From NCBI RefSeq assembly GCF_014284275.1, contig NZ_JACOFU010000005.1:124001-188000 (forward strand): a stretch of 64,000 bases of DNA, in the 5' to 3' direction. Under the pieces are notes generated by a model, which was not told the DNA's origin, searched no databases, and saw only the letters and a list, made by a program, of their open reading frames with translations. The DNA is from Affinundibacterium amnicola (lineage in GTDB: Bacteria; Pseudomonadota; Gammaproteobacteria; Burkholderiales; Burkholderiaceae_D). Below are positions 46,807 to 48,170 of this stretch, piece by piece. Within the stretch, counting starts at the first letter, position 1; each line of letters opens with the position of its first letter. The translations under genes were made by a program, and so were the position numbers.

Positions 46807-46860
46807 ATTATTTCAGCAGATTTTTTGATGAAGAAAAACAAGGTCTTTTTCTTTTAATTG

Positions 46861-47080
46861 AATAAGTTTATATATATGAATAGTAGTAGTTGTTAACGGC
46901 GACAAATTTTGTGGATAAGCTGAGTTTACTAATTAAAATCAAGGCGCTACAGAAAATATAAGTAGGCGGAAAATCTTTGTATGAACGCTCAACAATTTTT
47001 GTATAAGTTTTTTGACTTGGATAAGTAAGACAGTTCTACACAAAATCTGCAAAGCTTATCCACAGCTTTATCCACAAAAA
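46861..47080 (+). other. Origin-like module A (DnaA boxes and TAG repeats)
   Basis: Elements in order: AT tract TATATATA (46869-46877 region), TAGTAGTAG (46881-46889), GC-rich TTAACGGCGAC (46893-46903), perfect DnaA box TGTGGATAA (46910-46918), then perfect TTATCCACA boxes at 47056-47064 and 47068-47076. The order AT tract, DnaA-trio, GC-rich spacer, DnaA box is that of bacterial unwinding elements such as E. coli oriC left of R1. A 28-bp core (46893-46920) is identical in module B. Length of about 220 bp fits an oriC. Confidence 0.75.
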
Positions 47081-47119
47081 AATATTTTTTTCTTTCTTGT
47101 ATTTCTTCTGTTTGATGTT

Positions 47120-47905
47120 TCAATCGACTTGTATTTTTCGATTTTCAAAATAATTCTTCAAAATTTCCAAGGTATACGGCGCAGCGACGTTTTTTACAAA
47201 GCTTAAGAAATCAACATGCGCCGTTTCATCCGCACTATCAGAAATTGTTCTTAAAATCGCGAACGCTAAATCATGTTCGTCACAAACTTGCGCAATTGCT
47301 GCGCCTTCCATTTCTACCGCTAACAAATTAGGTAGCGCTTGCTTTAATTCTTTTAACACTTTGCTGTCGTGAATAAATTGATCGCCACTCGCGATTAATC
47401 CAGTATGCGATTTCACGTCTTGCAATTGAAATTCCGTGATTTGGCTCGCAGAAAAATGTTGATGCATGGTTTTAATGAACTGGTCAGTGGCATTTTGTAA
47501 GGCCATATGCAAATCTTGTTGTACAAAAAAACGTGATTTACCAGTTAACGGAATTTCAAAACGAGGAAACAAGGGCGAAGCATCCATATCGTGCTGTAGC
47601 AAGGTTTCAGCAATCACGATGTCTCCCACCTTTAACTGCGGATCAGCAGCGCCTGCAACGCCACTTAGAATCAGTTGATTCACTTGGAAATGATGAATCA
47701 AGAGATTTGTCGTACTTGCGGCTGCTACTTTTCCTATTCCGGCTAATACCATGACTACTGGATGTCCCCACAGCTCACCTTGTATGAAATTGCGTTTAGC
47801 AATTCGATGAACTGTTTTGTGTTGAATAAAGGCTTCTAATCCTTCTTGTTCTTCACGCATGGCAAAGATTAAGCCTGTGGTATTCGGTTTATTTGAAATA
47901 AGCAT
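47120..47905 (-). CDS. mtnN: 5'-methylthioadenosine/S-adenosylhomocysteine nucleosidase
   Basis: The protein has 261 aa. MtnN/Pfs features: GLIFAMREEQEGLEAF with the catalytic Glu near the start, VMVLAGIGKVAAA, LILSGVAGAADPQLKVGDIV, LLAVEMEGAAIAQVC (nucleoside-binding ME.A) and TISDSADETAHVDF with the catalytic Asp. It cleaves methylthioadenosine and S-adenosylhomocysteine to adenine and thioribose/ribosyl products, feeding methionine salvage and quorum-signal synthesis. It is flanked by the two origin-like modules; module B occupies its promoter region, so DnaA may influence its transcription. Confidence 0.9.
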   Translation of the reverse strand: MLISNKPNTTGLIFAMREEQEGLEAFIQHKTVHRIAKRNFIQGELWGHPVVMVLAGIGKVAAASTTNLLIHHFQVNQLILSGVAGAADPQLKVGDIVIAETLLQHDMDASPLFPRFEIPLTGKSRFFVQQDLHMALQNATDQFIKTMHQHFSASQITEFQLQDVKSHTGLIASGDQFIHDSKVLKELKQALPNLLAVEMEGAAIAQVCDEHDLAFAILRTISDSADETAHVDFLSFVKNVAAPYTLEILKNYFENRKIQVD

Positions 47906-47940
47906 GGTTTTTCAAAAGAAGAAGATAACAAGAACTTCGC

Positions 47941-48170
47941 TTTGTTTTGTATACATAAGGTATATATATACATAGTAGTAGTAGTTAACGGCGACAAATT
48001 TTGTGGATAAGCCGGTTTACTAACTTGAAATCAAGGATTTAGCGCAAGGATAAAGACTGGGACAATGCTTGTACAGAAAAAGAATAGATTCTGCATAAGA
48101 TTTGGACTGTGGAAAGCTCATGTGGTTTTGCACATAAGCTCCTCAAGATATACAAAGACTTATCCACAGA
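47941..48170 (+). other. Origin-like module B (DnaA boxes and TAG repeats)
   Basis: Elements repeat those of module A in the same direction: TATATATATA (47961-47970), TAG x4 (47973-47984), TTAACGGCGAC (47985-47995), TGTGGATAA (48002-48010) and TTATCCACA (48160-48168). The distance between first and last box is 158 bp, exactly as between 46910 and 47068 in module A. Sequence between the boxes differs, so boxes and spacing are conserved rather than the whole stretch. This points to selection for DnaA assembly. Confidence 0.75.

Follow-up and report, generated by a model that had tools for sequence, protein, structure and literature searches.

Where the chromosome of this Undibacterium starts its replication, and whether two similar intergenic regions lying on either side of one gene, mtnN, can both belong to the starting point, are the questions raised by the locus reported here. 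A textbook bacterial chromosome carries one oriC with one unwinding element, usually beside dnaA. A sequence-only reading of the window (the whole 64-kb stretch of DNA that was analysed) had proposed that duplicated, co-linear origin modules flank mtnN, and this proposal is supported in the present study by GC skew, anatomy and the comparison of relatives. We consider, with a probability of roughly three in four, that the locus is the Undibacterium chromosomal replication origin and that a pair of complete modules of the E. coli oriC type, arranged as a direct repeat flanking mtnN, makes it up. It is located on contig C28 of a 4.58-Mb genome in 32 contigs, and its features are the following (window coordinates; variable columns refer to the own genome and six relatives).

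46869–46877, no strand: AT tract of module B, probable unwinding element
46875–47076, minus strand: module B, complete, between the stop of a LytTR regulator gene and the mtnN stop
46881–46889, no strand: DnaA-trio-like repeat of module B, TAG three times (1 of 13 trio columns variable)
46892–46897, no strand: GTTAAC between trios and box, module B (0 of 6 columns variable)
46910–46918, minus strand: R1-like DnaA box of module B, a perfect box
46937–46949, minus strand: IHF-type site of module B, differing from YAANNNNTTGATW at one position (by eye, in agreement with the relative L024)
47056–47064, plus strand: additional perfect DnaA box, lying 12 bp inward of the far box of module B
47068–47076, plus strand: inverted, R4-like DnaA box at the far end of module B, 158 bp away from the R1-like one
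47120–47905, minus strand: mtnN-like nucleosidase gene between the modules (Pfam PNP_UDP_1, E 4e-46)
47961–47970, no strand: AT tract of module A, probable unwinding element
47967–48168, minus strand: module A, complete, flanked by the mtnN start and the stop codon of a DUF3419 gene
47973–47984, no strand: DnaA-trio-like repeat of module A, TAG four times (1 of 13 trio columns variable)
47984–47989, no strand: GTTAAC between trios and box, module A (0 of 6 columns variable)
48002–48010, minus strand: R1-like DnaA box of module A, a perfect box
48029–48041, minus strand: IHF-type site of module A, 0 mismatches (by eye, in agreement with L024)
48160–48168, plus strand: inverted, R4-like DnaA box at the far end of module A, 158 bp away from the R1-like one

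In module B, the AT tract comes first on the plus strand from left to right, followed by the R1-like box, the IHF-type site and the far box, so that reading from far box to trios proceeds on the minus strand; module A points in the same direction. The gene name mtnN was taken from the sequence-only reading, our own support for it being the Pfam match; the product is 97% identical to that of the Oxalobacteraceae metagenome assembly UBA7693 and 89% to that of Undibacterium seohonense, on which basis we assign the genome to Undibacterium. All five perfect TTATCCACA boxes of the window fall within 46910–48168 (46910 minus, 47056 plus, 47068 plus, 48002 minus and 48160 plus), against 0.55 expected in 64 kb, and none of 100 shuffles reached five. 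A chance cluster is thereby ruled out, as had been claimed, and the locus has the DnaA-box cluster exceeding chance that is asked of an oriC. The spacing of 158 bp between the outer boxes, start to start, in both flanks (46910 to 47068 and 48002 to 48160), the three and four TAG copies and the presence of the same 28-bp core on both sides of mtnN had also been described correctly. Outside the window, about 31.5 kb to the right of module A, the same contig carries a co-directional pair of perfect DnaA boxes with a spacing of 160 bp (C28:203695 and C28:203855), which does not form a module of the kind described here.

The 28-bp core (46892–46919 and 47984–48011, identical in both modules of the own genome) occurs only twice in the 4.58-Mb genome even when up to three mismatches are allowed. 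It includes the box-to-trio spacer, which changes fast and differs in module B of the nearest relative, L024; possibly, the identical core is a small patch that arose by local conversion or by chance. An in-register alignment of the two modules covers 218 bp and gives 64% identity. Two traits had been overlooked in the sequence-only reading: an IHF-type site that occupies equivalent positions in A and B, and, at −124 and −88 from the inner box of each, boxes deviating by two mismatches (by eye), there being no recognisable box (three or more mismatches, by eye) at −141 or −55 in either module of the window. The spacer between box and trios was, by eye, 17 bp in A and 20 bp in B, with four and three perfect trios, respectively; in the Janthinobacterium-type modules of locus L104 it was 16 or 17. 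Only 0.01% of the 30-bp stretches of the window are less stable than the one starting at 46852, at the AT tract of module B, and 0.03% of the 50-bp stretches less than that from 46846; for module A the values were 0.04% (30 bp from 47950) and 0.26% (50 bp from 47940). A sequence model, R1, built from 47 modules without E. coli, gave 114.4 bits to module B and 130.3 bits to module A, scores that are not independent evidence, since both modules are among the 47 sequences.

With regard to the position in the chromosome, GC skew on the own 414-kb contig turns from negative to positive at the locus, with a minimum at 44.8 kb of the window, about 2 kb to the left of module B, on a curve with local reversals. 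The own skew was drawn on this contig only, no global curve being obtainable from 32 contigs. Because the own genome is so fragmented, five one-contig relatives were sampled (20 stretches in each). In G165, a complete Undibacterium relative of 4,538,647 bp with mtnN modules at 4.5358–4.5370 Mb and dnaA 108 kb from them, sampled in 20-kb stretches, the samples between 0 and 2.2 Mb had skew that was positive or close to zero and those between 2.4 and 4.54 Mb had negative skew; the minimum across the joined ends lay about 350 bp beyond the record end, some 2 kb from module B. The cumulative minimum of the module stretch was found at 5,672,112 in G232, within the module array (5,671,371–5,672,335); at 2,688,636 in G204, beside its three modules; and at 353,712 in G123, where the modules are about 1.2 kb away. 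The dnaA genes of these three genomes were 566, 260 and 353 kb away, in positive, positive and negative skew, respectively, and the nearest flanking samples of the modules were opposite in sign on the two sides. In G028 the module and dnaA stretches, 49 kb apart, were both negative and the curve was flat, so that skew cannot separate them. Location at the GC-skew switch, also asked of an oriC, is therefore met on the own contig and in G165, G204, G232 and G123, and is ambiguous in G028. A skew minimum far from 47–48 kb would have refuted the sequence-only reading; the one found is near it, and the complete relative agrees at its mtnN locus.

An origin at dnaA was excluded for the own genome, given that the 20 kb around this gene contained one perfect box and no match to model R1 at E up to 1. 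Over the whole genome, only two matches were obtained with the strict motif and only two with model R1 (16 of 835 first-look candidates scored). Modules were found 7 to 399 kb from dnaA in 22 of 38 genomes (same contig, ends not crossed) and, around the record ends, at 49, 108 and 566 kb in three more; the remaining 13 were left out because of location on another contig, lack of a strict module or a missing contig size. According to the part of the source available, chromosome 1 of Cupriavidus metallidurans CH34 has its skew switch about 90 kb from dnaA, with three perfect DnaA boxes in 213 nt (PMC2864759), and the exact origin position of Burkholderia cenocepacia chromosome 1 is described as uncertain in the available text of PMC4948915. 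The placing of the origin around mtnN rather than dnaA is supported by skew, but it is not peculiar to this genome, a skew switch away from dnaA having been reported for another member of the Burkholderiales, as far as the accessible portion of PMC2864759 goes.

The anatomy of the module was studied in 228 family modules collected by the box and trio motif alone (one mismatch allowed per part), after dropping repeats of the same DNA and modules too near a locus end. From the far box to the trios, and with the start of the R1-like box as 0, the order is a far inverted box at −158, an IHF-type site at −31, TTATCCACA at 0, GTTAAC, CTACTACTA trios and a TATATATA tract; the family consensus also has weaker boxes near −141, −124, −88 and −55, between the far box and the IHF-type site. 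With up to three mismatches, a box was present at −141 in 69% and at −55 in 35% of 133 family modules. The far box was no part of the search pattern; allowing one mismatch, it was found at 156–160 bp in 222 of the 228 modules (−158 in 133; −156, −157, −159 or −160 in 89; absent in 6). An IHF-type site exactly at −31 had no mismatch in 68 modules, one in 121, two in 38 and three in one, that is, at most one mismatch in 189 of 228, against a frequency of 0.0005 per position elsewhere in the modules. Since 158 bp is about 15 helical turns, it can be inferred that both strong boxes would share one face of the DNA.

The core of an E. coli-type origin, namely an R1 box, an adjoining IHF-type site and an inverted far box, is thus complete, with the far box at 158 instead of 180 bp. 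E. coli oriC (NC_000913) has the same succession of AT tract, R1 box, IHF-type motif (at −31), weaker boxes and a far box in inverted orientation. Its boxes at −55 and −141, offsets at which a box can be recognised in part of the family modules but in neither module of the window, have the same direction, and its far box is at −180. Four motifs with two mismatches are present in its 265 bp, and we take the one at −31 to be the known IHF site. In an ungapped comparison from far box to R1, 34 of 75 informative columns of the family consensus agree with E. coli, better than at 40 other offsets (best 29) and in 2000 mononucleotide shuffles (best 32), and model R1 finds E. coli oriC at E 3e-4 in 184 kb. 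The shared offsets and this agreement indicate that each module is laid out like E. coli oriC with trios added. It differs from the latter in the clear TAG trios beside R1, in the presence of two to three copies instead of one, in the neighbouring genes and in the far-box distance.

The conservation of both modules was assessed in the own genome and the six relatives closest in mtnN, which have this gene between the modules (L024–L029) and of which L024 is very close. The relatives could have refuted the sequence-only reading by lacking both modules; with one mismatch allowed per motif part, all six have both. Among the columns of the elements (box, far box, IHF, GTTAAC, trio and AT), 2 of 58 were variable in A and 2 of 58 in B; the columns between elements varied in 34 of 139 and 77 of 139, and those of the box-to-trio spacer in 6 of 12 and 8 of 12, respectively. 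Mean identity across genomes was 91% between A modules and 83% between B modules, against 61% between A and B of one genome. Because corresponding modules of different genomes are more alike than the two modules of one genome, the doubling predates these species, and a recent duplication of A into B in the own lineage is ruled out. At the level of sequence, three points can be regarded as established: that the locus sits at the skew switch, that the modules have the anatomy described, and that each of the two is conserved independently. A different pattern was observed in the seven genomes of genus g23 (L249–L255, L262–L268), in which the two modules are opposite in direction and near-identical from −90 to +60: within-genome identity was 97–100% in six and 74% in one, and between genomes the means were 78% and 80%, a putative sign, in the sequences, of gene conversion between origin modules.

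It could be argued that only one module starts replication, probably A, which is better conserved, and that the other is a cluster for DnaA titration or recharging or serves to tune neighbouring genes. We regard this as possible but unlikely. Module A is indeed less variable between species, and judging from the inter-element DNA of B, which varies more, B could be a junior partner; moreover, some Undibacterium show a change in a strong box of one module (the R1-like box of A and the far box of B in L028, the R1-like box of B in G165). A titration role is also made plausible by two relatives with 19 perfect DnaA boxes in 12.7 kb (L032, Undibacterium terreum) and 16 in 8.4 kb (L031) at the origin, 0.07 being expected in each. 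This halo of boxes reaches well past the two modules, and a milder one was seen in G204. Nevertheless, module B keeps its trios, GTTAAC, AT tract and IHF-type site with almost no variation in the element columns, and its AT tract is even less stable than that of A. A datA/DARS-type site consists of DnaA boxes and an IHF site without an unwinding element, and neither module fits it, as both retain AT tract and trios; since a titration site needs no trios, AT tract, GTTAAC or IHF-type site, pure titration is disfavoured for B. The doubling is, furthermore, retained beside quite different neighbours, as detailed below.

The strict motif was present in 35 of 43 genomes of the genus (8 without a strict match) and in 229 of 343 genomes of the family, in 25 of 44 genera (114 without); in the family search, a reversed control pattern gave no match in any of the rows displayed. 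When about 3 kb at the first match were inspected with one mismatch allowed, 29 of 30 genus loci had two modules in one direction and one had a single module, while 24 of 30 family loci had two, two had three and four had one, also in one direction. What had been considered unusual is, therefore, no oddity of the own genome, two or three modules being found in most motif-bearing loci of the family. In 13 genomes, chosen for having strict matches on both strands, two such matches were opposite in direction (on different contigs in one of them). Of 80 mtnN loci from named records, 46 had modules (7 one, 30 two, 9 three), among them loci of Undibacterium, Janthinobacterium, Massilia, Pseudoduganella and Herminiimonas, and 34 had none; in L042, L047 and L100, which belong to the 46, the two modules are on opposite strands. 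The loci L300 (G204), L104, L105, L235, L236 and L059 each contain three modules. A role of mtnN as obligatory partner was ruled out, since 30 of the 43 genus genomes have no close mtnN match (19 none, 11 weak only) and the strict motif is in 35. In module loci without an mtnN match, 16 of 20 scanned open frames had a Pfam match, including LysR, AsmA, DUF2059, aldehyde-dehydrogenase and carbamoyltransferase proteins.

In a sample of 150 genomes of the order, the strict motif was found in three, all of the own family (to which five of the 150 belong), as opposed to model R1 matches in 85 at E ≤ 0.001 (E-values are rough). The apparent restriction to the family is, therefore, partly a limit of the strict motif. 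Among these 85, 65 had one match and 20 had two to four, some of them overlapping on opposite strands. Five matches were situated 1.2–1.7 kb into a one-contig genome, as would be expected near dnaA, although dnaA was not located. We infer that the older arrangement was likely one E. coli-type module and that doubling is typical of the family without being confined to it. In L361 (G466), from another family of the order, two opposite R1 matches about 3 kb apart and a third on another contig were observed; doubling may have arisen outside the family too.

A further explanation is that the locus is a single bipartite origin in which DnaA on both modules is bridged across mtnN and neither module suffices, as in Bacillus subtilis and Helicobacter pylori. 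In the origins of these bacteria, the gene between the two halves is dnaA. They share with the present locus two DnaA-box clusters flanking a gene, and one half alone was needed for unwinding in vitro, according to the available part of PMC6669920. In favour of such a bridge, the modules are at most about 3.5 kb apart in the loci examined and mostly in one direction. Unlike those origins, in which labour is split and only one cluster has the unwinding element, each module here is complete, with a candidate unwinding element (AT tract and trios) in both halves. Additionally, the spacing ranges from about 360 bp to 3.4 kb and the orientation is opposite in some genera, which disfavours a rigid bridge or two-part machine, and we hold this explanation to be doubtful. 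The bipartite oriC of the sequence-only reading is supported as an origin around mtnN, but the term is too weak, each half being equipped with an AT tract, trios, a DnaA box, an IHF-type site and a far box of its own. Finally, it is hardly credible that the locus is no origin and only holds DnaA-regulated promoters of mtnN and of the response-regulator operon, for although module A immediately precedes the start of mtnN, the genes on both sides of module B converge on it with their ends, promoter-like matches are rarer in the region than in shuffles (2 vs. 4.8), for which promoters were dropped as an explanation, the skew switches at the locus and relatives carry the same modules beside unrelated genes.

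In comparison with published systems, the basal unwinding system of B. subtilis and other bacteria shares with the modules the DnaA box, the spacer, the 3'-GAT-5' trios and the AT tract, as described in the accessible sections of PMC8287927 and PMC6669920; here, the modules are present two to three times, each joined to an IHF-type site. The rule given in the available text of PMC8287927 is a DnaA box followed, within 16 bp, by at least three trios, and the spacers of 17 and 20 bp exceed this limit. The program of that survey, by the same portion of the source, left a single candidate per origin in more than 99% of genomes (PMC8287927); because it narrows to one candidate, a second module would not have been listed. 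In the part available of PMC6669920, the box-trio unit is proposed as the ancestral element and IHF as an E. coli addition; the modules described here combine both. Cupriavidus metallidurans CH34 shares the skew switch away from dnaA and the DnaA boxes; box clusters are described in the available part of PMC2864759, which makes no mention of trios, an IHF site or a doubled module. Putative double origins on one chromosome, including the hemE and dnaA loci of Ralstonia pickettii, were reported by Gao (2015; PMC4403523, partial text), although those of Ralstonia are about 290 kb apart, compared with about 1.1 kb, in one locus, here. No description of tandem complete oriC modules was found in our literature search, which did not extend to subscription papers or the DoriC tables.

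With respect to the mechanism, inferred from E. coli and B. subtilis in the absence of data on binding, unwinding or copy number, each module would have DnaA at its strong R1-like box and at the far box in inverted orientation, IHF would bend the DNA beside R1, DnaA would be guided from R1 onto the trio repeats, and the AT tract would then be opened by DnaA for helicase loading. DnaA binding, IHF binding, strand opening and the capacity of either module to open alone all remain inferences. In our preferred reading of the doubling, both modules can start replication, being redundant or cooperating in one origin locus, and one firing at the twin-module locus would serve the whole chromosome. Whether the purpose of two modules is redundancy, cooperation or a division between start and control is open. 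The odds appear to us even that, more generally, chromosomes of the family start from two to three complete and individually competent E. coli-type modules, which would combine the IHF layout with B. subtilis-like trios, be redundant or cooperate directionally, and be kept alike in some genera by gene conversion.

What appears new in these findings, within the reach of our literature search, is a probable origin of several complete modules; a skew switch away from dnaA was already known, at least from the part available of PMC2864759. A multi-module origin kept across the family raises the questions of whether each module loads helicases or one suffices, how double firing is avoided and why the doubling is kept. 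The trios and the IHF-type site beside R1 in one module also raise the question of whether the two published opening mechanisms are alternatives or one. In practical terms, family genomes rotated to dnaA would not begin at their origin.
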